A DNA stretch of 64,000 nucleotides, taken from the NCBI RefSeq assembly GCF_000723185.1, contig NZ_CBTY010000009.1:310001-374000 (forward strand), in the 5' to 3' direction. Below the pieces are notes generated by a model. It had not been told where the DNA came from and did no database searches. It worked only from the letters and a program-made list of their open reading frames with translations. Each line of letters begins with the position of its first letter. Position 1 is the stretch's first letter. Shown here one piece after another: positions 3,047 to 20,579 of the stretch. The position numbers were made by a program, and so were the translations under genes. Source of the stretch: Candidatus Nitrosotenuis uzonensis (GTDB lineage Archaea > Thermoproteota > Nitrososphaeria > Nitrososphaerales > Nitrosopumilaceae).

Positions 3047-3820
3047 ATGTCCACTAGTGAGTTTTCAAGCCTAGCTGGCAATGACTATCCAGAATTTGGC
3101 AGATACATGATTAAAGAAGAGCTTGTGATGAACCTGCCAAGTCAAAAGATAACATGCAGACAGCTAAACGATAACAGTTTTTCCTACAAAAGAGAGTCAT
3201 TTGGTGAAGAAATAATCAAGAAAATAATTCACCCTAAAACAGCAGACTTTCAGATCGGACTGATGCCAATTTTACCAATACATACGCCCACATACAAAAC
3301 GGATTTTTTTTTCATACGATTCAATGAACAGATCTATATATCGCAAAACTCTTCGATGGAAGTAATAGTATCGTTTCCAATAGAGACAGGAATATTTCTT
3401 GTCGAGGAGGAACATTCAGGGCTGATAGACGGGTTTTCCTGTGACCCTGTAGGCACTCATTTTGCTCTTTATGGAAATCCAGAAGAAGGAAAGCTCTGCA
3501 AATATGCGCGGATAGAGTTAGAATCTCCGACTATTCAGCAGTTATTTATGCATGCACAAATGAAGATCAAAATTGTGAACGAGTCAGACGAAGGAGTTTT
3601 TGTAGGAAAGCTTGTATTTCCCGTGACCGATCATGATCTTCATTTTCACAAGACAAACGTAATGATGGACGGCCTTGACGCGATAATAAAAAACAGGATA
3701 GGTGTGCGCGTAATAGACATGGTACAAAACCCCATAACAGGAATAGAGGGATGGAAGAAAGCAATACGCGATACGCAAAAAACTGACTACAAATTTTCCA
3801 TGGAAAGGGGATTTGACTAG
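3047..3820 (+). CDS. DUF432 protein
   Basis: This is a 257-residue soluble protein that I recognise as DUF432, an archaeal family of unknown biochemical role. It is rich in beta strands and has no signal peptide or membrane segment. It ends directly against the mscS start (stop at 3820, ATG at 3821), so the two are co-transcribed and probably translationally coupled. Pairing of DUF432 with MscS-type channels is known in archaea, so a part in osmotic response or channel control is inferred. Confidence 0.7.
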   Translation: MSTSEFSSLAGNDYPEFGRYMIKEELVMNLPSQKITCRQLNDNSFSYKRESFGEEIIKKIIHPKTADFQIGLMPILPIHTPTYKTDFFFIRFNEQIYISQNSSMEVIVSFPIETGIFLVEEEHSGLIDGFSCDPVGTHFALYGNPEEGKLCKYARIELESPTIQQLFMHAQMKIKIVNESDEGVFVGKLVFPVTDHDLHFHKTNVMMDGLDAIIKNRIGVRVIDMVQNPITGIEGWKKAIRDTQKTDYKFSMERGFD

Positions 3821-4660
3821 ATGAGCTGGGAGATATTCTCAGATAGCAACACAGTCAATATTCTTGGAAACGAAATTGCCGTAGGCTCTCTGATTTTAGG
3901 CGCCATAATCATGATAGTTGGTGTTATCATCGCCAGGATCATAAGCACCATATTCAAAAAATATTTTGCCGCAAATCTGCCAGATAATACCGCAAAAAAT
4001 CTGCACAAGCTTCTCTATTACGGCATCATAATCATGACGCTGCTTGCTGTCACAACCAGCCAAGGAATAGATCTTAGCGGGTTGATGGTAGCAGGAGGCA
4101 TATTTGGTATAGTGATAGGATTTGCCACGCAGTCAGTTGTCTCCAACGCCATATCAGGAATATTTTTGATGTTTGATAGACCTGCAAAGACGGGAGATTT
4201 GATAGAGATTCAGGCAAGCAACATTTACGGCAGGCTCATGGATGTCACAATATTTTCCACACGGATAAGGCTCTTTGATGGATCAATAATGCGCGTTCCC
4301 AATGAAAAAGTATTCACATCTGAGATAAGAAATGTTTCAGGTAGCGAAGTAAGACGAATTGAAGTCATGGTAGGAATAGCATACAAAGAAGACGTCGATA
4401 ACGCAATCAGCGTAATACGAAAGGCAGTCTCAAAAAACCAGTACATATTGCGTGAGCCTGCGCCCGAAGTTAGAACCGACTCACTAGGTGACTCTAGCGT
4501 GAACTTGAAGGTTCTCACCTGGATTCCTCGAGACAACTGGGATGATGTTGGACCGACTTTGCTCAAGGATATCAAAAAAGATATCGACGAAGCAGGAATA
4601 GAAATTCCGTTCCCACAGAGAACCATACACTATGCCGATACCTCAAAGGCGGAGCGATAG
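3821..4660 (+). CDS. mscS: MscS-family mechanosensitive channel
   Basis: This is a 279-residue small-conductance mechanosensitive channel. It has three membrane segments (about residues 22-45, 62-80 and 86-110). The last is the glycine/alanine-rich pore helix (VAGGIFGIVIGFATQ) and leads into the conserved beta domain with FMFDRPAKTGDLIE-type sequence. It opens on membrane tension to release solutes. It sits between the DUF432 gene and a RAM-domain gene with no gaps, so all three are likely one transcript. Confidence 0.88.
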   Translation: MSWEIFSDSNTVNILGNEIAVGSLILGAIIMIVGVIIARIISTIFKKYFAANLPDNTAKNLHKLLYYGIIIMTLLAVTTSQGIDLSGLMVAGGIFGIVIGFATQSVVSNAISGIFLMFDRPAKTGDLIEIQASNIYGRLMDVTIFSTRIRLFDGSIMRVPNEKVFTSEIRNVSGSEVRRIEVMVGIAYKEDVDNAISVIRKAVSKNQYILREPAPEVRTDSLGDSSVNLKVLTWIPRDNWDDVGPTLLKDIKKDIDEAGIEIPFPQRTIHYADTSKAER

Positions 4661-4661
4661 C

Positions 4662-4934
4662 GTGTCAGAGAATCAAGATGGCGAGCAATCAAAGCTTTTC
4701 GTTCTGGTAACATGTTTTGAGGGAAAGACAAAGGAAGCAGTCGAAGAAATTCGCAAGATAAGCACGGTCACTGACATCAAGGAAACCGACGGCCAGTATG
4801 ATATACTAGTAACGCTAGAATCAGACTCGAATGAAGAGTTGAAAAAGGCGCTTGTGTACAAGTTAAGAAAAATCAAGGCCATACGAGGAACCCTGACGCT
4901 AAGATCAAGTGACGATCTTGGTCTTTTAGGCTAA
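4662..4934 (+). CDS. Lrp/AsnC-type ligand-binding (RAM) domain protein
   Basis: This is a 90-residue stand-alone RAM domain (beta-alpha-beta-beta-alpha-beta) without the DNA-binding half of Lrp/AsnC regulators. The pattern TDIKETDGQYDILVTL is typical. A GTG start at 4662 is preferred because a GGAG Shine-Dalgarno sequence lies at 4651-4654. An in-frame ATG at 4632 would overlap mscS by 29 bases. Such proteins bind amino acids or form octamers with full Lrp proteins. Its place behind mscS suggests a small-molecule sensor for this operon, which is inference. Confidence 0.7.
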   Translation: MSENQDGEQSKLFVLVTCFEGKTKEAVEEIRKISTVTDIKETDGQYDILVTLESDSNEELKKALVYKLRKIKAIRGTLTLRSSDDLGLLG

Positions 4935-12256: not shown

Positions 12257-12301
12257 CAGAAAGCGAATTGGGACGCTTAGAGTATCCCTTCATTATTTTT
12301 T
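12257..12301 (+). repeat. 45-bp direct repeat, left copy
   Basis: These 45 bases match 15342-15386 with only two differences. Both copies lie in the gap between convergent genes. They include GGGA and TCCC segments that can pair and end in a run of T, so they could act as a terminator for the rightward gene. They share the CAGAAAG core with the other AGAAA repeats of this region. Confidence 0.75.
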
Positions 12302-12313
12302 GAACTCAAGAAT

Positions 12314-12601
12314 TTAGAGCCTGTTATCTCTTCCATAGAGATTTTTGTGATCGTCAAGATCAACTAGCCACACAATATTCTGTTTATAATCAACATAATA
12401 GATCAATGTATGGGATTTTGTCATGTGTCTTCCAGTACAATTTTTGTAGGTTCCGTGCTTTGGCTCTCCTAGTGTGGCCGGATCATCGACATCTTTGAGC
12501 TCTTCTACGAAATTTGTAAAATTCTTAATTAGTGGTTGATTTGATCTGAACTTCTTTAGTTTCTTGTCTATAGTATCATCGAATGGTCGAATTCGCCACA
12601 A
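12314..12601 (-). CDS. RelE/ParE-superfamily toxin-like protein
   Basis: This is a 95-residue basic protein. The helix FDDTIDKKLKKF at the N-terminus and the strand run HTLIYYVDYKQNIVWLVDLDDHKNLYG at the C-terminus follow the RelE/YafQ-type fold. RelE toxins cut mRNA on the ribosome. The small antitoxin gene at 12605-12748 ends 3 bases before the start. The two form an operon on the minus strand. Confidence 0.7.
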   Translation of the reverse strand: MWRIRPFDDTIDKKLKKFRSNQPLIKNFTNFVEELKDVDDPATLGEPKHGTYKNCTGRHMTKSHTLIYYVDYKQNIVWLVDLDDHKNLYGRDNRL

Positions 12602-12604
12602 AGA

Positions 12605-12748
12605 TTATTCATCTAAAACTTTGTTGACATGTTTTAGATATTCATCTGGTGTGTAAGTTTTACCTTTTGCTTTACCGGATTCAATCAGTTTAATCTTTTT
12701 TTCAATTTCTGGATTTAGTTTTTCTTGTTCTTTGTGCACTTTTTGCAT
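12605..12748 (-). CDS. Small antitoxin (RelB-like), 47 residues
   Basis: This very short gene encodes a 47-residue, lysine- and glutamate-rich protein: MQKVHKEQEKLNPEIEKK, then a helix ending EYLKHVNKVLDE. Its size, charge and place 3 bases before a RelE-like toxin mark it as the antitoxin. There is no DNA-binding N-terminal domain, so it may only cap the toxin. A TATA box (12771-12778) about 26 bases upstream supports a leaderless start at 12748. Confidence 0.65.
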   Translation of the reverse strand: MQKVHKEQEKLNPEIEKKIKLIESGKAKGKTYTPDEYLKHVNKVLDE

Positions 12749-12820
12749 ATGTTAGAATTAGTTGATTTTCTATATAAACACAAGTATGGAATGAGCGGAG
12801 AATTTACCAAAGAAAAATCC

Positions 12821-12834
12821 GTGGGCCCAAAGGG
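12821..12834 (-). repeat. 14-bp copy of tRNA(CAU) 3' end (left)
   Basis: GTGGGCCCAAAGGG is identical to 20505-20518, which is the 3' end of the tRNA(CAU) gene plus one flanking base, and to 16893-16906. All three have the same orientation. The copy is the start of a longer element (to about 12905) shared in part with 16893-16975. It could be an attachment-site remnant. Confidence 0.55.
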
Positions 12835-12865
12835 TTTCACTAGACTCAGCTCATCGAAGCCCTAC

Positions 12866-12890
12866 CAAAAACAGGCAGAAAGCCTTGGTG
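12866..12890 (+). repeat. AGAAA-type dispersed repeat, copy C
   Basis: This copy reads AAAACAGGCAGAAAGCC and TTGGTG. AGGC and GCCT around AGAAA can form a 4-bp hairpin. It matches 16944-16965 and follows the tRNA-end copy at 12821 by about 30 bases, as the 16893 element does. It lies just past the stop of the HEPN gene. Confidence 0.5.
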
Positions 12891-12925
12891 TATTGTAAGC
12901 CCACCAACCTAATTTTTTATTTTGA

Positions 12926-13369
12926 CTAAATCTTCATGATCTCTTTTGCTTTGTTCACAAATGCTTCTGCTTTTTCTACCATCTTGGCTGCTTTGTCAGA
13001 AGTTATGATATCCACTTTGTCATACATGAATTCGTGTCGAAGCTTCCTACCTCTAACAAAATATCCCAAAACATCTTCTGGGAATTTTGCTGAAAATACT
13101 GCGATTGTATAATTCACCACTGCAATATGATGGTCATGACCCTTTGGCCTGTATCCCTTGTAAAACATCAGAGCCCTTCCTGCGTGCAGCATTGCGTTGT
13201 AGGCAGCTGCATGAGCCCATTCCCATTCATCTATTCCAAGCATGTTCTTTGCAGAGGCTAGATTTTTGCCTGCGCCTTCCATTTCGTTTCCGACCTGATC
13301 CTTATCAGATTCGAATTTTTCAACCAGATCTTGCTTTAACAAGTCGCTTAAATTCATGCTCGTCACCAA
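12926..13369 (-). CDS. HEPN-domain toxin of a HEPN/MNT pair
   Basis: This is a 147-residue all-helical HEPN protein. The R-x4-6-H RNase motif appears as RGRKLRH (about residues 106-112), and the helix HAAAYNAMLHAGRALMFY is typical. HEPN toxins are RNases that are blocked when the partner nucleotidyltransferase adds AMP near this motif. The gene overlaps the end of its partner (13320-14360) by about 50 bases. The start is ATG 13369 or ATG 13357, both inside the overlap. The overlap implies one mRNA and linked translation. Confidence 0.82.
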   Translation of the reverse strand: MVTSMNLSDLLKQDLVEKFESDKDQVGNEMEGAGKNLASAKNMLGIDEWEWAHAAAYNAMLHAGRALMFYKGYRPKGHDHHIAVVNYTIAVFSAKFPEDVLGYFVRGRKLRHEFMYDKVDIITSDKAAKMVEKAEAFVNKAKEIMKI

Positions 13370-14360
13370 TTATCATCATTATCGGAGTCTTTGATATCTC
13401 TTTTATGAGAGGTATGTTCTTCCTTGCCTTTTCCATTAGATCCTCTTCCTTCCACAATACGAAATTAATCTCACGTCCGGATATCCTTTCTGTTTTCGAT
13501 ACAGATTTCATAAGAGAGTCCTCATCGATATCACCCACAACCAATAGATCTATGTCGCTTGTGGCCGATTCCGTTCCTTTGGCAAACGAGCCGTAGATGA
13601 GCGCATATTTGATGTCCTTGTTGGACAGTCCTTTCATTATCACTTCGTCCAGCATTTCAAATTTCAAAAATATTCTTTTCATCTCCTCAAAAATCACGCT
13701 TTTATCATTGATCTTGTAGAATACCAACGGCCCCTGGCTTTTTCTTGAAACCAGTCCTATGTTTTGCAGTTGAGGCATTTCCTTGGCTATGGTTGATGGG
13801 GCAAGCCCGGTTCTTCTTGCTATGTCATTCATATGAAACTCGCTAGTTGCATTGAGAAACAACAGCTTTAAAATGAGTACCTGTGATCTAGACCTGAACA
13901 AGTGTTCTAAAGAGCTCTTGATGGAAACAGATTTCTGCTTGGTCTTCTTTTCTCCAAAAACAAGTTTTTTGACGGATGGTAAGGCGTCGCTTCTTGTTGG
14001 ACCGACCATCTCTTTGACAGAATCACTGACTAGCAGCAATCCTATTCCCAGATTTTCACAAGAGTTCACAATGGAGTTATCGCTCCTGTCCTTTGGTATG
14101 GCAAGATATGAAAAATTTACCGTATTCCTTTGGTGCAATGCCTGCTCTATTCCGCGGCGTATGTCGCCAGAGCCGCCCTTTACTTCGACTACCGCTATCT
14201 CACCGTTCTTTGTGGCAACTATGTCTGGTATTCTGCCTCTCATTTTTACCTCAAACTGTACCTTCCAGCTTTTCTTCTCTAGGTATTCGACTACCTTGTT
14301 TACAATGATATTTTCTGTCTGTATTAAACTGGTGTTTCTATTTGATGAATGCATATTCAC
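13320..14360 (-). CDS. PD-(D/E)XK nuclease / winged-helix / MNT nucleotidyltransferase fusion
   Basis: This is a 346-residue three-domain protein. Residues about 10-115 carry a PD-(D/E)XK nuclease core with PD46, Glu59 and Lys61 (VVEVKGG), and Gln73 in the following helix. Residues about 150-220 are a winged helix (MNDIARRTGLAPSTIAKEMP). Residues about 240-346 are a minimal nucleotidyltransferase with GS-x10-DxD (Gly257, Ser258, Asp269, Asp271). The last is the antitoxin class that AMPylates HEPN toxins, and a HEPN gene follows with a 50-base overlap. The nuclease domain is unusual for such antitoxins. The start is GTG 14360 or ATG 14354. Confidence 0.8.
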   Translation of the reverse strand: MNMHSSNRNTSLIQTENIIVNKVVEYLEKKSWKVQFEVKMRGRIPDIVATKNGEIAVVEVKGGSGDIRRGIEQALHQRNTVNFSYLAIPKDRSDNSIVNSCENLGIGLLLVSDSVKEMVGPTRSDALPSVKKLVFGEKKTKQKSVSIKSSLEHLFRSRSQVLILKLLFLNATSEFHMNDIARRTGLAPSTIAKEMPQLQNIGLVSRKSQGPLVFYKINDKSVIFEEMKRIFLKFEMLDEVIMKGLSNKDIKYALIYGSFAKGTESATSDIDLLVVGDIDEDSLMKSVSKTERISGREINFVLWKEEDLMEKARKNIPLIKEISKTPIMMIIGDEHEFKRLVKARSG

Positions 14361-14365
14361 TAAAT

Positions 14366-14380
14366 AGAAATAGTATTTCT
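14366..14380. promoter_or_regulatory. Perfect inverted repeat, likely operator of the HEPN/MNT operon
   Basis: AGAAATA and TATTTCT are perfect 7-bp arms around one base. The repeat lies between the TATA box (CTATAAATA on the plus strand, 14380-14388) and the start at 14360/14354. A protein bound here would block transcription. The winged helix of the fusion protein is the obvious candidate for self-control. Confidence 0.6.
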
Positions 14381-14391
14381 TCTATAAATAG

Positions 14392-14544
14392 TTAGTATGT
14401 GTGGGTCTCTGTAAAAACCTCGATGGTTCCCAAATAGTTGCAGTTCTTACACCTGTAGAAGATGGTTCCATTTGAATGACTGACAAATTTTTCCGGCTCT
14501 GCCATTTTGCAGTGTGGTCTTCGCAGATCATGTCCAGTATCCAT
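14392..14544 (-). CDS. Small zinc-ribbon-like protein
   Basis: This protein is 50 residues from the ATG at 14544. It contains RPHCK and YRCKNCNYLG, a plausible knuckle that could bind zinc with His11, Cys12, Cys32 and Cys35, followed by an acidic end. A TATA-like stretch (about 14565-14578) is 27 bases upstream, which fits a leaderless mRNA. A longer reading from 14619 lacks support. It stands just upstream of the HEPN/MNT operon on the same strand. Function unknown. Confidence 0.5.
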   Translation of the reverse strand: MDTGHDLRRPHCKMAEPEKFVSHSNGTIFYRCKNCNYLGTIEVFTETHTY

Positions 14545-14615
14545 ATTTTCATTATACAAAATTCGTTTAAAAATATCCAAAATATCATCAGGACAGAGAT
14601 TCAATGAACAAGTAG

Positions 14616-14906
14616 TCACTCCACCAAATATTTCTCAATGAATTCAATTATCTCGCGCTTTGCTCTTGGATTTAGCGATGCTGTTGTGTTTCTCTTCCAC
14701 AAAATCAGATATCCGTCCTTTGCCAGCTCATCAACCTTCTTTCTAACATTCTTGCCGTTGTTTTGGACTACCTGCCCAAGCCACTTTGCCATTGTATCAA
14801 TAGGAAAATAATGCTCGCCCCATCTTCCCTTTCTCATGATGAAGTTGAGTATCAGTGCCTTGAGTTCTTGATCCGGGTATTCACGTTTCATAAGTACACT
14901 TATCAT
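14616..14906 (-). CDS. Winged-helix-like small protein
   Basis: This is a 96-residue basic protein with a likely winged helix: FPIDTMAKWLGQ, then NVRKKVDELAKDGYLILWKR as recognition helix and wing. It is divergent from another small winged-helix gene (14954), and both share one TATA region between them. Such proteins usually bind DNA. The target is unknown, but the shared promoter suggests joint control. Confidence 0.5.
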   Translation of the reverse strand: MISVLMKREYPDQELKALILNFIMRKGRWGEHYFPIDTMAKWLGQVVQNNGKNVRKKVDELAKDGYLILWKRNTTASLNPRAKREIIEFIEKYLVE

Positions 14907-14924
14907 ACCTTTGGAAGTCTAAAC

Positions 14925-14931
14925 TTATATA
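14925..14931. promoter_or_regulatory. TATA element shared by two divergent leaderless genes
   Basis: TTATATA, inside ACTTATATACTT, is centred at 14928. It lies 26 bases before the ATG at 14954 and 22 bases before the start at 14906 on the other strand. The only 47 bases between the two genes contain no second good TATA box. Confidence 0.5.
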
Positions 14932-14953
14932 CTTTTAAACATCAAGTAATACT

Positions 14954-15292
14954 ATGACAATGGAAAATCAGTCTCTTCTAATGAGAGTTCTAGGCTACTC
15001 GCCAAAGATGAAGATTCTGGATTACCTACTAGACTTTCCAACAAATGATTTCACAAAGAAAGAGATCATAGACGCGCTAGGTATGAGCAAGCAGACTTTC
15101 TACAAGTATTTTGATGATTTAGAAGGCGTTGGAATCGTAAAAGTAAACAGGGCCATAGGAAAAGCAAAACTCTACAAGGTCAACTATGAGAATCCCGTGG
15201 TCACGGACCTAGTGAATATGGAAAAGAAACTTTCCTTACAGATTGCAGATGAGGAAGAGTCGAAATTAAAGAAACCCATTCCTGCAAAATAA
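14954..15292 (+). CDS. Winged-helix transcription regulator
   Basis: This is a 112-residue protein. Residues 15-80 form a winged helix (FTKKEIIDALGMSKQTFYKY as helix-turn-helix, IVKVNRAIGKAKLYKVN as wing). A C-terminal helix rich in charged residues could allow dimerisation. The start matches a leaderless mRNA from the shared TATA element. It resembles many small thaumarchaeal regulators. The regulated genes are unknown; the divergent small protein is a candidate. Confidence 0.65.
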   Translation: MTMENQSLLMRVLGYSPKMKILDYLLDFPTNDFTKKEIIDALGMSKQTFYKYFDDLEGVGIVKVNRAIGKAKLYKVNYENPVVTDLVNMEKKLSLQIADEEESKLKKPIPAK

Positions 15293-15341
15293 TTTGAATA
15301 TTGATATCAATAATCAAAAGAAAACGACAAACTAAAACAGA

Positions 15342-15386
15342 CAGAAAGTGAATTGGGACGCTTACAGTATCCCTTCATTATTTTTT
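15342..15386 (+). repeat. 45-bp direct repeat, right copy
   Basis: This is a near-identical copy (43 of 45) of 12257-12301 in the same orientation. Its right end overlaps the stop codon of the leftward gene at 15378-16337. The two copies bracket about 3.1 kb that holds the relBE-like pair, the HEPN/MNT operon and three small genes. Confidence 0.75.
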
Positions 15387-16337
15387 CTCCCACCATTTTG
15401 CATTTTCAGATATTGCACATAGAGGCGAAAGTTCTTTCGCTAATCCATAATCCTTGACTTGATCATTTACTATTGCCCCTTCAAAATAGTTAATTGTGTT
15501 ATATCCCCCTAATTCGCCACAGTATCCAATCGCAGACGGATCGGTGTAGTTTATGTTAAATTTACCAATCATAAATTTTGGAGTCCTATTGATGTTTTCG
15601 TTTACCAAATAATCTATCAGCGTATTTGCAACTTTTTCTTCCTCTTCTAGGCTGAAATATGACAATCTATCCAATGTCAATGCAGTCAGATCCACCTGTA
15701 CATCACAAAAACAAGACCCTGTGTTTACTTTACATGGGTTTGGATTCTCAGAAAAAATGTTCATCTTTTGCGGCCTTGAAATCGAGTCTATTGCAAACCA
15801 GTGAGTCACAGAATTGACATCTATTACAGCGCCACACCGTTGATCTCCATTAAGCAGAGGCCCACTAGCTACAATTATTTTGTCTGGAATGTATTCAATT
15901 TGGTTTTGAGTCAACAGTCTGGAAATAGTTTCTTTGTCGGGTGTCGAAAAACAGTCTTCCTGTTGCAGATATCTGTTAATGTCTTCGAATGGTATTTTTG
16001 TCGTCCCCAAAGCCTCGTTCTTGCATATCAATTCTATTCTATACGGGCCGTTTCTTCCCTCATGGATTATCATCGTTATTGAACTTCCGTCCACGGCAGA
16101 GGCGGTTAATTCTATTCTGGCAGAAGATGCGCCGTCAATGACAAGTCCATGCACTGGGCCATACTTTTGCTGGAACAATTCTTGCGCCAGATCATAATCG
16201 CTTTTGCTACATTGTAAAAATCCTGTAACTGTACCACCTTGTACTTGACAATTTTGCATATCCTGATATACAAAAACCAGTGCTGTAAACGAGATTCCTA
16301 TTACGGCAATGATTGAAACTAAGAGTACAGTTTTCAT
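15378..16337 (-). CDS. Membrane-anchored or secreted protein, cysteine-containing
   Basis: This is a 319-residue protein with an N-terminal hydrophobic segment (residues 4-25) that is a signal anchor or signal peptide. The outer part holds about eleven cysteines, including CKVNTGSCFCDV near residue 210, which suggests disulfides. No known domain was seen. It overlaps the upstream gene by 4 bases (ATGA), so the two form one operon. Its last codons lie within the 45-bp repeat. Function unknown. Confidence 0.5.
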   Translation of the reverse strand: MKTVLLVSIIAVIGISFTALVFVYQDMQNCQVQGGTVTGFLQCSKSDYDLAQELFQQKYGPVHGLVIDGASSARIELTASAVDGSSITMIIHEGRNGPYRIELICKNEALGTTKIPFEDINRYLQQEDCFSTPDKETISRLLTQNQIEYIPDKIIVASGPLLNGDQRCGAVIDVNSVTHWFAIDSISRPQKMNIFSENPNPCKVNTGSCFCDVQVDLTALTLDRLSYFSLEEEEKVANTLIDYLVNENINRTPKFMIGKFNINYTDPSAIGYCGELGGYNTINYFEGAIVNDQVKDYGLAKELSPLCAISENAKWWEKK

Positions 16338-16792
16338 TTTCGTTTTTTAATTATGAATACTCCTACGATTATTGACGCCAAAATTATTCCGATTATTATG
16401 ATAAACAGCAATACTTGTTGGAACTGTGCATAGTACCTGAAATCATCCTCAAAGAAAGGACGGTCATATTCTGAAGGAAAAGATATCTCTCCTATAGAGT
16501 GATAATAAGAAAACACGTTGTGATTTGCAATGTTGTCGTTCATCCAGTCAGCTAATGTACCATTATTTTTTGCATCAAACATTTCCAGCTTTTTTTGTTC
16601 CATCCACTCTGAACCTTTGTGATCATAGTATGATTCCCAAGCTGTTCTGTATTCTTCGCGGTTTACGGGTAAAACATCAAAACATGGAGCCTCCTGCCAA
16701 TCCGTATTTTGAGCACATGATGCAGAAACATAAGTAAGAGATGCAGACATCCCAAAAATGATTGAACAAAACAAGATTACGAATTTGTTCAT
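16334..16792 (-). CDS. Secreted protein with C-terminal membrane anchor
   Basis: This protein is 152 residues from the ATG at 16792. It has a signal peptide (MNKFVILFCSIIFGMSAS, cleavage near VSAS), an outer domain of about 90 residues rich in Trp, Tyr and acidic residues, and a C-terminal membrane helix (about 120-145) ending IIKKRK. A TATA-like element about 27 bases before 16792 favours this start over the one at 16840. It overlaps the next gene by 4 bases. No family was recognised. Confidence 0.5.
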   Translation of the reverse strand: MNKFVILFCSIIFGMSASLTYVSASCAQNTDWQEAPCFDVLPVNREEYRTAWESYYDHKGSEWMEQKKLEMFDAKNNGTLADWMNDNIANHNVFSYYHSIGEISFPSEYDRPFFEDDFRYYAQFQQVLLFIIIIGIILASIIVGVFIIKKRK

Positions 16793-16892
16793 GATAATAA
16801 TTAGCATTATTTTCCTTAAATCTTGCTCATCTTTCATCAATTAGATAATTTTGAAAAAAGGCTTCGATCCTCTCAGAGTTGTGAAACCGAAG

Positions 16893-16906
16893 GTGGGCCC
16901 AAAGGG
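16893..16906 (-). repeat. 14-bp copy of tRNA(CAU) 3' end (right)
   Basis: GTGGGCCCAAAGGG is identical to 12821-12834 and to the tRNA gene end at 20505-20518. Downstream, at 16921-16937, lies a near copy of the tRNA T-arm in the opposite orientation (AGGGATCGAAGTCCTT). This supports a tRNA-derived origin for the element. Confidence 0.55.
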
Positions 16907-16940
16907 ATGCGCTTGCACATAGGGATCGAAGTCCTTACAT

Positions 16941-16975
16941 CAAAAACGGCAGAAAGCCACTGGTGGGCTTAAAAT
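16941..16975 (+). repeat. AGAAA-type dispersed repeat, copy E
   Basis: This copy reads AAAAACGGCAGAAAGCC, then ACTGGTGGGCTTA. GGC and GCC around AGAAA form a short hairpin. It pairs with the tRNA-end copy at 16893 exactly as copy C pairs with the one at 12821. It lies just after the stop of the leftward membrane-protein gene. Confidence 0.5.
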
Positions 16976-16979
16976 ACAC

Positions 16980-17267
16980 CTACAACAACTTTTTCTTTAA
17001 GAATTGTTTTTTCCCAATTTGTATTATAGCACCAATCATTCCCCAAAACAAAAGACCAGACACCAGTCTTAGAATTATAATTTCATGGGAACTGATAAAG
17101 TAATTTGTTTCGTTGGCTTGATGCAATAAAATTGGAGATATAACGAATCGTTCCACAGGAAAATTTAGAACATAATAAAAAATATGCTCTCCTGATTGTC
17201 CAATTATGGAGATATTTGCAATCGCAACCAAAGTACCATAAATTAAAAAAACAATTAGTATTCGCAT
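16980..17267 (-). CDS. Small membrane protein
   Basis: This protein is 95 residues from the ATG at 17267. It has two predicted membrane segments (about residues 1-20 and 62-85) with a hydrophilic part between, and a lysine-rich end. A TATA-like sequence (about 17290-17298) supports the start. No family was recognised. It lies between two secreted-protein genes on the same strand. Confidence 0.4.
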   Translation of the reverse strand: MRILIVFLIYGTLVAIANISIIGQSGEHIFYYVLNFPVERFVISPILLHQANETNYFISSHEIIILRLVSGLLFWGMIGAIIQIGKKQFLKKKLL

Positions 17268-17292
17268 TACCAAAAAAAATAGAGATGGTTAT

Positions 17293-18210
17293 TTATGTCA
17301 GCTCGATAAGACTAGCTGTTCCATCATTGTATTCGCCTTGCCAATAACCTGAATTGCCTTGATTGTATGTCCCTATACTACCTACACCAGTCTGACCATC
17401 CAAATCATCAGTAAGATCAGACTCTGCAGTTTCCCAAGAGTCAATTTGATGGCATAAACATCCCCAGTTCCACGTCTCTTGATGAGCAGTTCCTACAGAC
17501 CAATCATCATAAACACCATGTGTGTCAAAATCACCGCCAAACAAACGTATGTGTTCTCTTTGACCAACTATGTTTCCCGTGTATTGTTGATGATCACTTT
17601 CCACCCAATCCAAAGTGCCTCCATGGGGCACGTTATTGATTAGGACGTATTGTTGTGGCGATACGCTATCACCGCCCCAATTATTGGTTGCATATGTGTC
17701 AATAACGGTATCGGTTTGAGATGTGGTTGCATCCTCATAAAATACCATATTTACTGGATCTAATGCATTGCCCATCGGGGAATCATATGATTCATCCCCA
17801 AATAGAATAGAGTGCTCACCTATTCTGACCATATTTACAGTCATAACATTGGGTCTGTTCTCAACGGTTGTCTTGAGTTTTGCTTTTAATTCTTCAACTT
17901 TGTCAGAACCGGCATCTCCAAAATTAGTCTCTAACCAATCATAGTAGTTTTGATTGGCTTCCACCAATTCTTCAAATGTTGGAAGTTCATTGGCTTCTAT
18001 GGTCACTTTTAGTCGCTGAACCTTTGTATCACCAGAATAGTATACATCGGTTACCTCGCTGGAAATGATATTAACGGTGTATTTTTTGGGCTTGTCATTT
18101 TCTACGGCTTCAATTTGTTCTACAGTTACTACTGCAAAAGTTGTTAACAACGCAGCAGCAATAATGGATGTCAAGGTTATTGAAGTTATTTTTCTGTTAT
18201 TTTTTGTCAT
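17293..18210 (-). CDS. Secreted protein of unknown function
   Basis: This protein is 305 residues from the ATG at 18210. The signal peptide is residues 1-27 (SLTSIIAAALLTTFAVV-type core). The mature protein has an N-terminal domain with EELVEANQNYYDWLE, and a C-terminal half rich in Trp, Gly, His and Asp with a CLCHQ cysteine pair. An ATG at 18222 also exists, but the TATA box (about 18233-18240) fits 18210. A TCAAT/ATTGA palindrome sits just upstream of the TATA box, as at the gene at 18986. Role unknown; possibly surface binding. Confidence 0.5.
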   Translation of the reverse strand: MTKNNRKITSITLTSIIAAALLTTFAVVTVEQIEAVENDKPKKYTVNIISSEVTDVYYSGDTKVQRLKVTIEANELPTFEELVEANQNYYDWLETNFGDAGSDKVEELKAKLKTTVENRPNVMTVNMVRIGEHSILFGDESYDSPMGNALDPVNMVFYEDATTSQTDTVIDTYATNNWGGDSVSPQQYVLINNVPHGGTLDWVESDHQQYTGNIVGQREHIRLFGGDFDTHGVYDDWSVGTAHQETWNWGCLCHQIDSWETAESDLTDDLDGQTGVGSIGTYNQGNSGYWQGEYNDGTASLIELT

Positions 18211-18247
18211 TACCATTTCCATAACTGGAAATCATAAAACAATTTAG

Positions 18248-18261
18248 TCAATCCAGATTGA
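18248..18261. promoter_or_regulatory. Palindromic site upstream of the secreted-protein gene (minus)
   Basis: TCAATCCAGATTGA has 6-bp arms (TCAATC/GATTGA) around CA. It lies directly upstream of the TATA region of the leftward gene. A matching site, TCAATTTGGATTGA, is at 18933-18946. Placement upstream of TATA is typical for an activator site. Confidence 0.45.
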
Positions 18262-18364
18262 AGAAATTTTTAAGTATTACAAGAAAACCTGTTCGTAAAA
18301 ATACAGTTTTTGGACACAATTGTAGACGTTTTCAGATAATTTTGTAAGATGTAAAATATTTCAA

Positions 18365-18745
18365 TCAATTATTTCCAAAACAATTCTGTTCTTTCAAATA
18401 TACTAGCACATCATCTGTTATTCTGTATTGGCTCTCTATTCCGTCTGGAGTACAGAAGGCAATGGTAGAAAGGGGCATGCCGTATATGTAGTTGATCCTA
18501 AGCATTATCCAGTTACCCTCTTCGTTTGTTGCCTGAAATCCTACCTGATAGGTGTACACCCCATCTGGAAATACAATGACATTGTGATGTCCATACCGCT
18601 GATAGAATGCCGCTACTTCTGGTATCTTTTTGAGCTCCTCAATATGGTCTGCAGGAGAGTCATAGAATGGCTTTATCTTGACAAGCAATGCAAGAATCAC
18701 CACAGCTGCGATTCCCACTATAATCATTTTGTGCATGGTTTTCAT
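18365..18745 (-). CDS. Membrane-anchored small protein
   Basis: This is a 126-residue protein with an N-terminal membrane helix (residues 6-25) and an outer domain of 100 residues with two cysteines (FCTPDG and EQNCFGNN). The domain is beta-rich (VYTYQVGFQ, WIMLRINYIYG). No family was recognised. An inverted repeat ACAAG/CTTGT (18753-18764) lies between a TATA-like element and the start, and may be an operator. Confidence 0.45.
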   Translation of the reverse strand: MKTMHKMIIVGIAAVVILALLVKIKPFYDSPADHIEELKKIPEVAAFYQRYGHHNVIVFPDGVYTYQVGFQATNEEGNWIMLRINYIYGMPLSTIAFCTPDGIESQYRITDDVLVYLKEQNCFGNN

Positions 18746-18932
18746 TTTCTAAACAAGTGCTTGTCAACTATTATAGTTAATGGGTGGGAGTGAGATATTC
18801 TTGTCAAGTCTTGAGCAAAGCATATTGTAACGATCATTATCATTTTGTTATCAGGTTTTGTTTTACATTCTTTTGTCTTCCATTTCTGCAAAATTGGTAT
18901 GACATTATCAGAGTACGCATATAAGAATTAGC

Positions 18933-18946
18933 TCAATTTGGATTGA
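18933..18946. promoter_or_regulatory. Palindromic site upstream of the secreted-protein gene (plus)
   Basis: TCAATTTGGATTGA resembles the site at 18248-18261 and is followed by the same AGA. It lies just before a weak TATA-like sequence (18952-18960), 30 bases before the ATG at 18986. Confidence 0.45.
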
Positions 18947-18985
18947 AGATTTTCTTATTAGAGAAATGTTCTATGTCTAGTCTTA

Positions 18986-19735
18986 ATGATCACAAAGAAA
19001 CTAAAAGCAGCTCTTTTTGCGTTGCTTGTTGTGGCAGTTGCAGTTCCCGCTGCATCAGTTGGATTTGCAAACGAAGCATATTCTGCCAAGCAAGTCGACA
19101 GAGCGCTAAAGGAGTTACAGCCCTTTGTTAAGATGGACGACAGTAAAATAGGAATAATGGACATCGAATCTGCCAAGAAAAATGGCGTAAGCGATGAGTC
19201 CATACAGATCGCAAGCGAGTTCCTAAAGGCTCAGAACAACATGATTCAGCGCATACACGACAACCCGAACCAGAGAATGTATTTGGCAGAGGAGGAGTAT
19301 GCAAAGTTCAGCGACTATAGCAGGTCCATTGAGGAGGGCAAGACAAGAGGCGACAGTCCTGCCAAAATACTTGGCGTTCAGTTTGCTAGCGCCGAGGACG
19401 TTTGTGGAGGATCTGGAGAAAACCCCCATCCCCAGCCCGACACGACAACATCTGGCCCTTGGTCAACTGAGACTGCTGCAATAAACGCGTTGCCTGGTGG
19501 GTACTATCTGGTGCCGTACTATGCATCATACAACTATGGTGCAGACTATCACGATCCCCGAACTCTCTACAGCTGCACCACAGATTCATTCCGATACCAG
19601 TCAATCATATACGAGAGTGGCGGAGACTGGTATCACAGCGAGCATCATTCCCCAGGTGAGCCCAATCCAGAGGTTCTGGCATACACATGGCCTGTCTGGT
19701 GGTGGGGCGGATACGTCGCAGACTGGCACCTCTAG
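18986..19735 (+). CDS. Secreted protein with aromatic-rich C-terminus
   Basis: This is a 249-residue protein. The signal peptide is residues 1-28 (cleavage near GFANE). The first mature part (30-130) is helical and charged. The second (135-249) has two cysteines and is very rich in Tyr, Trp and His, ending WPVWWWGGYVADWHL. No family was recognised. The 240 bases upstream contain the palindrome at 18933 and nothing else recognised. A surface or sheath role is possible but not shown. Confidence 0.5.
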   Translation: MITKKLKAALFALLVVAVAVPAASVGFANEAYSAKQVDRALKELQPFVKMDDSKIGIMDIESAKKNGVSDESIQIASEFLKAQNNMIQRIHDNPNQRMYLAEEEYAKFSDYSRSIEEGKTRGDSPAKILGVQFASAEDVCGGSGENPHPQPDTTTSGPWSTETAAINALPGGYYLVPYYASYNYGADYHDPRTLYSCTTDSFRYQSIIYESGGDWYHSEHHSPGEPNPEVLAYTWPVWWWGGYVADWHL

Positions 19736-19828
19736 AAATACCCCTCTCTTTCTTTTTTTTATTTAATATGTGCCAATCCAACACTGCTTTCATCCACAGA
19801 TGGTAGTGATAGTTTGTATGCTAAATGG

Positions 19829-20386
19829 CTAATGCTTTTTATTCAGAATAGCCTGAACTATGTGGTGGAGTACAAAGCCAGTTACTAATATGACCAGCGG
19901 TATTGTTAGCGATGTTATTTCTGACGTTGTTCCGTCTGGCCGTCTTATGCTGAAAAACTGATAATAAACAACGGCAAATGTAAAAAACGCACCTAGTACG
20001 CTGTACCTTATTCCTCTTTTGAAGATTCTCTTTAGGACGCCATTATCCTCAATGTTTTCTTTTGTTTCATTTAGCAGTAAGAAGAGTGTTGAATTGACGC
20101 GGAAATGTCTGTGTTTGATTCCTTTTTTTATAATTTCCTTGTTGGTAGTTTGCAGCAGTCCCAACTCGTTTAGTTTTTTTAGATGATGAATTACTAGACT
20201 TATCCGCATGTCAAGCTTATTAGCAATTTCATTTGTGTACATTTCCTTGTCTATTAACAACTTAATAATGTCTCTACTGGACTTGTTGCTCAGTAACTCT
20301 CCCAGCGCCTTTAATTTTTCATCGTCTGAAGAAAACACCTGTATATTGTCAAAGATTTCGGCATCTCCTTCCCTAGTTTCCTCCAC
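19829..20386 (-). CDS. Membrane-anchored winged-helix regulator
   Basis: This is a 185-residue protein. Residues 20-105 form an ArsR-like winged helix (SRDIIKLLIDKEMYTNEIAN, then ISLVIHHLKKLNELG as recognition helix). Two membrane segments follow (about 128-145 and 158-178). Membrane-bound one-component regulators of this shape are common in archaea. It starts with GTG. It might control the nearby secreted-protein genes and bind the palindromes at 18248 and 18933, which is a guess from position. Confidence 0.65.
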   Translation of the reverse strand: MEETREGDAEIFDNIQVFSSDDEKLKALGELLSNKSSRDIIKLLIDKEMYTNEIANKLDMRISLVIHHLKKLNELGLLQTTNKEIIKKGIKHRHFRVNSTLFLLLNETKENIEDNGVLKRIFKRGIRYSVLGAFFTFAVVYYQFFSIRRPDGTTSEITSLTIPLVILVTGFVLHHIVQAILNKKH

Positions 20387-20505
20387 TATTTTTTTAGCAA
20401 GTTCCTAGGTTAATAAAATTGCTCAGAATTTTGTATGTTGAACTTGTCGGAACCCTTCCAAACGGCAAGGTCGTGCTAAAGCAGGGCTCGATCCATAAGT
20501 AGGAG

Positions 20506-20579
20506 TGGGCCCAAAGGGCTTCGATCCCTTGGCTCACCGGTTATGAGCCGGTTACTCTACCAAGCTGAGTTATGGGCCC
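20506..20579 (-). tRNA. tRNA with CAU anticodon (elongator Met or Ile2)
   Basis: This 74-base cloverleaf has acceptor GGGCCCA/TGGGCCC with discriminator A, anticodon loop CTCATAA, anticodon stem ACCGG/CCGGT and T-stem AAGGG/CCCTT. CCA is not encoded. The CAU anticodon can be elongator Met or the modified Ile2; the GGGCC acceptor start leans to Ile2 as in other archaea, but this is not certain. Copies of its 3' end occur at 16893 and 12821. No intron is seen. Confidence 0.9.

Follow-up and report, generated by a model that had tools for sequence, protein, structure and literature searches.

Membrane-bound activators in archaea and the locus at 19829

Among described archaeal regulators, the closest counterparts of the system considered here are ArnR and ArnR1 of Sulfolobus acidocaldarius, which the available part of their description presents as membrane-bound one-component activators of the archaellum promoter (PMC6396743). 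Their binding sites, the ArnR boxes, are given in the accessible text as short inverted repeats (TCGAC-N5-GTCGA) that lie upstream of the TATA box and occur more than once (PMC6396743; PMC4307647). ArnR corresponds to arCOG05969 (pfam13463) and, in the accessible portion of the source, its reported occurrence is confined to the neighbourhood of archaellum loci in Sulfolobales and Desulfurococcales (PMC4858521). A second precedent is EarA of Methanococcus maripaludis, an activator that, in the part of its report available, acts at repeated short sites immediately upstream of the B recognition element and TATA box (PMC5512572). A comparable arrangement is found in Candidatus Nitrosotenuis uzonensis, in a 64,000-nucleotide stretch (contig NZ_CBTY010000009.1, positions 310,001 to 374,000; hereafter the window), where two matching palindromes precede two genes for putative secreted proteins, A and B, close to a gene at 19829–20386 for a winged-helix protein with a hydrophobic C-terminus (the 19829 protein). 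Comparison across related genomes indicates that the two palindromes are probably the operators through which this protein, a predicted membrane-bound one-component regulator, controls the secreted genes.

To our knowledge, very few regulator–operator pairs are known in ammonia-oxidising archaea, a group without routine genetics. The openly available literature on Nitrosopumilus and thaumarchaeal membrane-bound regulators, palindromes and secreted proteins yielded no description of this pair.

Like ArnR and ArnR1, as far as the accessible accounts of these describe them, the 19829 protein combines an N-terminal winged-helix/helix-turn-helix domain with C-terminal membrane segments (tentatively predicted here), and is paired with inverted repeats, more than one in number, that probably lie upstream of TATA and with putative targets at the cell surface. 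It differs from ArnR in matching HTH_5 and not PF13463, in having, at 185 residues, no room for a separate sensor or HAMP domain, in the sequence of its box and in its putative targets, which are adjacent genes for soluble-looking secreted proteins. It may act like ArnR, yet it stands outside the ArnR family by the one feature tested, pfam13463. The resemblance to EarA lies in the position of the sites just upstream of TATA, whereas EarA, in the available part of its description, uses four 6-bp boxes in place of a single palindrome, acts on the fla operon and is given no membrane anchor. For the winged-helix part, the best matches by sequence and by fold are an ArsR-family archaeal heat-shock regulator (2p4w) and PH1932 (1uly); no C-terminal membrane helices are evident in these entries, and the sequence match is limited to about 60–80 residues.

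Two matching palindromes in secreted-gene promoters

The palindromes lie 685 bp apart in front of genes on opposite strands, so that the coordinates of an earlier note, which had placed them at 18248 and 18933 and about 700 bases apart, are right (Table 1). Compared in gene direction, TCAATCTGGATTGA of gene A and TCAATTTGGATTGA of gene B are identical at 13 of 14 bases and differ at one, and the ATG follows the end of the palindrome after 37 bp at gene A (ATG at 18210) and after 39 bp at gene B (ATG at 18986). This match in gene orientation is the stronger likeness of the two sites, not the following AGA that the same note had pointed to: the AGA is present after both palindromes on the + strand but carries no weight, because it stands between palindrome and gene at one site and beyond the palindrome, away from the gene, at the other.

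The arms TCAAT-N4-ATTGA occur twice in the window against 0.20 expected, a count of at least two being reached in 2 of 100 shuffles. The whole 1.64-Mb genome holds them at four places against about five predicted by scaling the window expectation; the bare pattern is not enriched genome-wide in the source genome. At the other two places no ATG stands at promoter spacing, both orientations having been checked by eye. Of the surface-protein regulon once proposed, there remain two secreted-gene promoters that carry the site, a local and not a genome-wide set.

Genes A and B both encode hydrophobic, signal-peptide-like N-termini, and neither matches a Pfam family at E up to 0.1 or an NCBIfam family at E up to 0.05, in agreement with their description as unknown secreted-protein genes. 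The predicted structure of protein A is unusable, with a mean predicted local distance difference test (pLDDT) score of 35, and no relative of protein A was found among solved structures (best E 0.066). Homologues of gene A that are 77% identical occur in G112 and G139, each carrying the same operator, and homologues of gene B are present in 11 other genomes of the family; a search of 16 other genomes of the genus gave no match to A or B.

At 39 crude gene starts of the window, the commonest start positions of all-AT 8-mers are −31 to −28 relative to the ATG (4, 4, 3 and 2 genes, against 0–3 elsewhere; small counts). An AT-rich peak at that distance is the expectation for leaderless transcripts. 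The box that follows the palindrome sits at this peak and holds several T and A positions that are invariant in 18 of 18 aligned sites, and the seven regulator genes whose upstream sequence was inspected have TTTTATT at about the same distance from their start, as judged by eye.

Site and regulator across 250 genomes

The survey set consisted of 250 genomes of the family, including records named Nitrosopumilus and Nitrosarchaeum. TCAATYTGGATTGA has 42 exact matches in 24 of these genomes, against 2 for a control pattern read backwards. The 42 were each read in both orientations, and the promoter layout was taken as an ATG between +34 and +43 that begins a protein whose N-terminus is hydrophobic; 20 matches, in nine genomes, have this layout, and every one of their ATGs lies at +37 to +39 (seven sites in G112, four in G139, two each in G000 and G109, and one each in G037, G050, G106, G118 and G138). 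Sixteen of the remaining 22 are inside open frames of at least 100 codons. With locus-adjacent variants included, 24 sites are listed, of which 21 have the ATG at +37 to +43 and one at +25; in two of the 24 the gene runs off the contig, with its ATG at +38. All 22 listed sites with a readable frame encode a strongly hydrophobic stretch within the first 40 residues.

Some relative of the 19829 protein at E ≤ 1e-5 is found in 129 of the 250 genomes, whereas close relatives (E ≤ 2.8e-42, 45–54% identical; next best E 9.6e-21) are confined to nine: G000, G050, G106, G109, G112, G134, G138, G139 and G192. Seven genomes are common to these nine and to the nine with layout-type exact sites (hypergeometric P 1.1e-10, a value that ignores phylogeny and linkage). 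Each of the nine close regulators has the element adjacent, before a secreted gene or two-open-reading-frame unit that converges on it tail-to-tail, and the same arrangement is present in 11 of the 11 loci examined, which comprise these nine genomes together with L175 and G037.

The two additional loci are predictive matches, one in each direction, for the pairing of regulator and site. A protein search with the regulator alignment against 84,980 named genomes returned six loci, five already among the G loci and one new (L175). The L175 regulator is 36% identical to that of the window, and the locus, found by protein alone, has a palindrome TCAATCTATATTGA with an ATG at exactly +38, the start of a secreted matrixin gene next to the regulator (Pfam M10, E 5.5e-9). 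Conversely, G037 was found by the motif alone, and its 3.6-kb contig holds regulator pieces tail-to-tail with a matrixin gene (E 1.4e-6). The weak score of the G037 regulator (E 1.5e-12) arises because the copy is broken between two frames at the contig edge. The L175 contig (JAJFGV010000001.1) is filed as an alphaproteobacterial metagenome-assembled genome with a GC fraction of 0.32, and is probably a misbinned archaeal one.

Homologues of A and B from genomes without a close regulator provide the corresponding control. The palindrome is absent (up to 1 mismatch, within 120 nt upstream, with up to five candidate starts each) from 11 of 11 such genes in nine genomes: G022, G115, G123, G127, G131, G149, G150, G178 (three genes) and G190. 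These are 11 of 25 homologue rows, those left out being the window's own genes, the G112 and G139 rows and matches that were short or partial, such as G127:C87, G178:C80, G149:C24 and G242. Since these homologues have no site and the gene A homologues of G112 and G139 have it, the site follows the regulator and not the gene family. Taken with co-occurrence, adjacency and the L175 and G037 loci, the tie between the palindromes and the 19829 regulator put forward in the earlier note gains strong comparative support.

Changes in the site are also seen beside changes in the regulator. The predicted recognition helix reads IQFSLIS in G106 and G192, against mostly RVSLVI (the LRVSLVI type) elsewhere. 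G106 has two operator copies 16 bp apart, the second standing in place of the conserved upstream flank. In G192, where the locus was read after an element had been predicted there, a 16-bp unit TATCAATTTGAATTAG is repeated in 7.8 perfect tandem copies (L167 7031–7154) directly before the TATA region of a secreted gene whose ATG lies 38 bp past the last unit. G134 carries the variants TCAATTTGAATTGA and TCAATTAAGATTGA beside its regulator. In G112, G134 and G138 the site also stands about 50–120 bp upstream of the regulator, in a region common to a divergent secreted gene, and autoregulation is possible in these three, though not general.

Looser searches were also made. The relaxed pattern TCAAT-N4-ATTGA with ATGAC 37–39 bp further on gave 45 matches in 32 genomes, against 2 for controls; many of these were rejected as one conserved coding stretch (TCAATGGGAATTGA...), and the search also brought up the site in G150, a genome with no close regulator. 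A site-model search returned weak matches in 136 genomes at E ≤ 0.05, which were rejected as regulon members, those inspected being mainly a conserved coding stretch ending TGGATTGC; the weak match in the source genome (C6:73787) lacks paired arms and does not count as a site. A viral collection contained two motif matches with ATGAC spacing, neither before a signal-peptide gene, and no relative of the regulator among 111 candidate stretches.

The 19829 protein

The presence of a winged-helix protein at 19829 is borne out by its match to HTH_5 (PF01022; E 5.7e-10, 39.4 bits), which exceeds the curated cut-off of 22. The match to metal-sensing ArsR/SmtB repressors (NF033788) reaches 34.4 bits, below the cut-off of 55, and PF13463 (HTH_27) is absent from the eight Pfam families listed at E ≤ 0.1. 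In the predicted model, the winged-helix blocks have pLDDT values of 70–90 and Foldseek matches to ArsR proteins, and they are followed by two long C-terminal helices of low confidence. The hydrophobic C-terminus agrees with the membrane-bound character first suggested, the hold on the membrane itself being predicted. C-terminal stretches above a hydropathy of 1.6 number two in four of nine orthologues, one in four and none in one; the window regulator has a single stretch.

Table 1. Features of the two secreted-gene promoters, the regulator gene and the tRNA-Met islet in the window
Feature	Position	Strand	Details
Copy of tRNA-Met 3' end, far islet end	16893..16906	+	GTGGGCCCAAAGGG
Gene A, 305-aa putative secreted protein, unknown fold	17293..18210	-	ATG at 18210
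Probable TATA box, gene A	18233..18242	-	TTGTTTTATG; aligned with TATA region of other sites
Putative operator palindrome, gene A	18248..18261	-	TCAATCTGGATTGA in gene direction, TCAATCCAGATTGA on + strand
Conserved upstream flank	18919..18932	+	ATATAAGAATTAGC; extra half-site GAATTAG / outer arm; kept in most aligned sites
Putative operator palindrome, gene B (inner 14 bp)	18933..18946	+	TCAATTTGGATTGA; exact match
Probable TATA box, gene B	18952..18960	+	TTCTTATTA; 34 to 26 bp before ATG
Gene B, 249-aa putative secreted protein, unknown fold	18986..19735	+	signal-peptide-like start
ArsR-type winged-helix regulator, hydrophobic C-terminal helices	19829..20386	-	GTG start at 20386; 185 aa
C-terminal remnant	20443..20502	+	LVGTLPNGKVVLKQGSIHK; resembles coding end beside tRNA-Met in congener L182, GVLPNGKVVLKQGPIIK
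tRNA-Met (CAT), islet anchor	20505..20579	-	

Proposed mechanism and alternatives

In the proposed mechanism, a homodimer of the cytoplasmic ArsR-type domain would bind TCAATYTGGATTGA, and two C-terminal membrane helices would tether the regulator and make its DNA binding depend on a signal at or across the membrane. Bound just upstream of TATA at a site whose end precedes the ATG by 37–39 bp, on genes with a probably leaderless mRNA, the regulator would help to recruit the TATA-binding protein (TBP) and transcription factor B (TFB), and this recruitment of basal factors would switch on secreted proteins A and B. Judged from the genome sequence, the circuit is local in the source genome, with one regulator, two promoters and a mobile-looking tRNA-Met islet. 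Activation is favoured over repression with moderate confidence, because of the extra upstream operator copies and the precedents of ArnR/ArnR1 and EarA.

The same operator and regulator could instead serve repression, with the protein lying over an extended inverted repeat, blocking TBP and TFB at the TATA box and being released by a membrane signal. The flanks do show an outer inverted repeat, though an imperfect one: complementarity is 53% in register against 23–43% at 16 other registers (23 distinct sites). The right arm of this repeat covers the TATA region and would suit a repressor, and the nearest solved relatives are mostly repressors, including the Pyrococcus heat-shock regulator 2p4w and ArsR-family repressors; both points count against an activator. 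Repression nevertheless appears less likely than activation, as the 14-bp core, the strictly conserved part, is placed upstream of the probable TATA box, the extra copies in G106 and G192 are added upstream, where a repressor would gain little, and the known membrane-bound archaeal analogues ArnR and ArnR1 are activators in the accessible part of their description (PMC6396743). A different promoter layout would take an upstream AT-rich box (ATATAAGAATTAG) for the real TATA and place the palindrome between TATA and the start site, with a 5' leader. Within that box, ATATAAG has the look of an archaeal TATA element, and in most sites some 13 bp separate it from the palindrome that follows, but all 18 aligned sites retain the downstream box, which begins about 31 bp before the ATG at the AT peak, and in G106 and G192 the upstream box is absent, operator copies standing in its place, which leaves this layout improbable. 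The palindrome just upstream of TATA, as the earlier note had it, is favoured by these same observations.

It is also doubtful that the palindromes are parts of a duplicated promoter-plus-leader cassette, kept as the copies are young, with the regulator a passenger on mobile islets. The targets do have a common leader (MTTKNIKTILFASLIAAM...) joined to unrelated mature parts, several near-identical copies exist in G112 and G139, and loci adjoin an integrase (G139), an IS4/5-type transposase and tRNA-Met. However, the core and its spacing are retained from genus to genus, whereas flanking and coding sequences have diverged, A and B homologues that have similar leaders and no regulator are without the palindrome, and the variant recognition helix of G106 and G192 accompanies a changed, tandem site. 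A chance pair of short palindromes would fit the four occurrences in the source genome, which are about the expectation, but deserves hardly any credit in view of the 42 matches against 2 controls, the constant ATG spacing and the association with the regulator.

Several observations weigh against the operator–regulator assignment itself. Regulator and targets are physically linked in every case, and co-inheritance could explain part of their association; G112 and G139, which contribute nine of the 19–24 sites, share near-identical genes, and the listed sites are not independent cases. G118 has the site but no close regulator (the genome is 82% complete, with contig ends), as does G150, where TCAATCTAAATTGA lies 39 bp before a secreted gene (L226, G150:C2, ~3022). 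Six exact matches are unexplained (two in G010, two in G166, one in G106 and one in G138), and the G138 regulator is without a clear hydrophobic C-terminus. The two G010 palindromes (L072, L073) are near-identical and intergenic, with no secreted gene, and no close regulator is found in that genome. At the G138 locus (L078, regulator at 4367–4882), the neighbouring secreted gene is split into two open reading frames (3141–4281), which may reflect decay or an assembly error.

The operator–regulator assignment, a prediction made from sequence alone, specifies the protein as well as its exact site on the DNA, the rule of spacing and the target genes. Natural variants, namely the 7.8-copy array and the changed helix with its changed site, make the pairing directly testable in vitro. 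If true, it would explain the membrane-linked control of secreted proteases and unknown surface proteins on mobile islets.

Cargo beside the regulator

The cargo beside the regulator varies, being gene B in the source genome and, in others, genes of no identified family. Trypsin-like cargo is indicated in G139, G050 and G106 (E 0.0017 to 0.027, in no case reaching Pfam's cut-off), and matrixin cargo occurs in L175 and G037, and also in G118, where the site is present and no regulator was found. A near-identical leader, MTTKNIKTILFASLIAAMILPFS, recurs in unrelated secreted proteins (L061, L062, L064–L067, L076, L129, L130 and others), which gives the impression that a single start of promoter and signal peptide was attached to a variety of mature parts. 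Searches of Pfam and PHROGs returned nothing for the integrases suspected by eye in L131, L129 and L067.

A tentative extension of these observations would see in ammonia-oxidising archaea a mobile, cargo-swapping secretion cassette, in which a fixed operator, TATA box and leader are combined with unrelated secreted proteins, among them matrixin metalloproteases, trypsin-like proteins and others of no known family. The tethered regulator, encoded tail-to-tail with the cargo, might sense a cell-surface condition, perhaps the activity of the product, and the operator might be amplified into arrays to tune output.

The tRNA-Met islet and its surroundings

Genes A and B and the regulator lie between the copies of GTGGGCCCAAAGGG at 16893 and 20505, and a direct repeat of the tRNA 3' end is present at both ends of the islet. 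With up to 1 mismatch allowed, the genome holds this 14-mer three times, always in this region (12821, 16893 and 20505). The tRNA-Met adjoins the neighbouring gene in 13 of the 13 congeners that have that gene, and the sequence past the tRNA 3' end differs. The tRNA-end repeats, the variable sequence beyond tRNA-Met and the absence of A and B from 16 congeners fit the acquisition of A, B and the regulator on a tRNA-anchored islet. No intact integrase was found inside the islet, only the short coding remnant adjoining the tRNA. A 410-aa open reading frame beside tRNA-Met is integrase-like in L187 only (PHROG 1, E 9.1e-5), and its L182 counterpart gave no match.

In 12821–20579, two segments of 4.1 and 3.6 kb are bounded by the three copies of GTGGGCCCAAAGGG and form tandem islets. 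Similar sequence (CAAAAACNGGCAGAAAGCC) comes after each of the two distal copies and is also found near a second tRNA-end copy in congener G004. The region 12314–14360, on or beside the neighbouring islet, encodes HEPN- and nucleotidyltransferase-domain proteins resembling a toxin–antitoxin pair, and a match to a ParE-like toxin lies just outside it. A 45-nt direct repeat, 96% identical, occurs at 12257–12301 and 15342–15386, 3085 bp apart.

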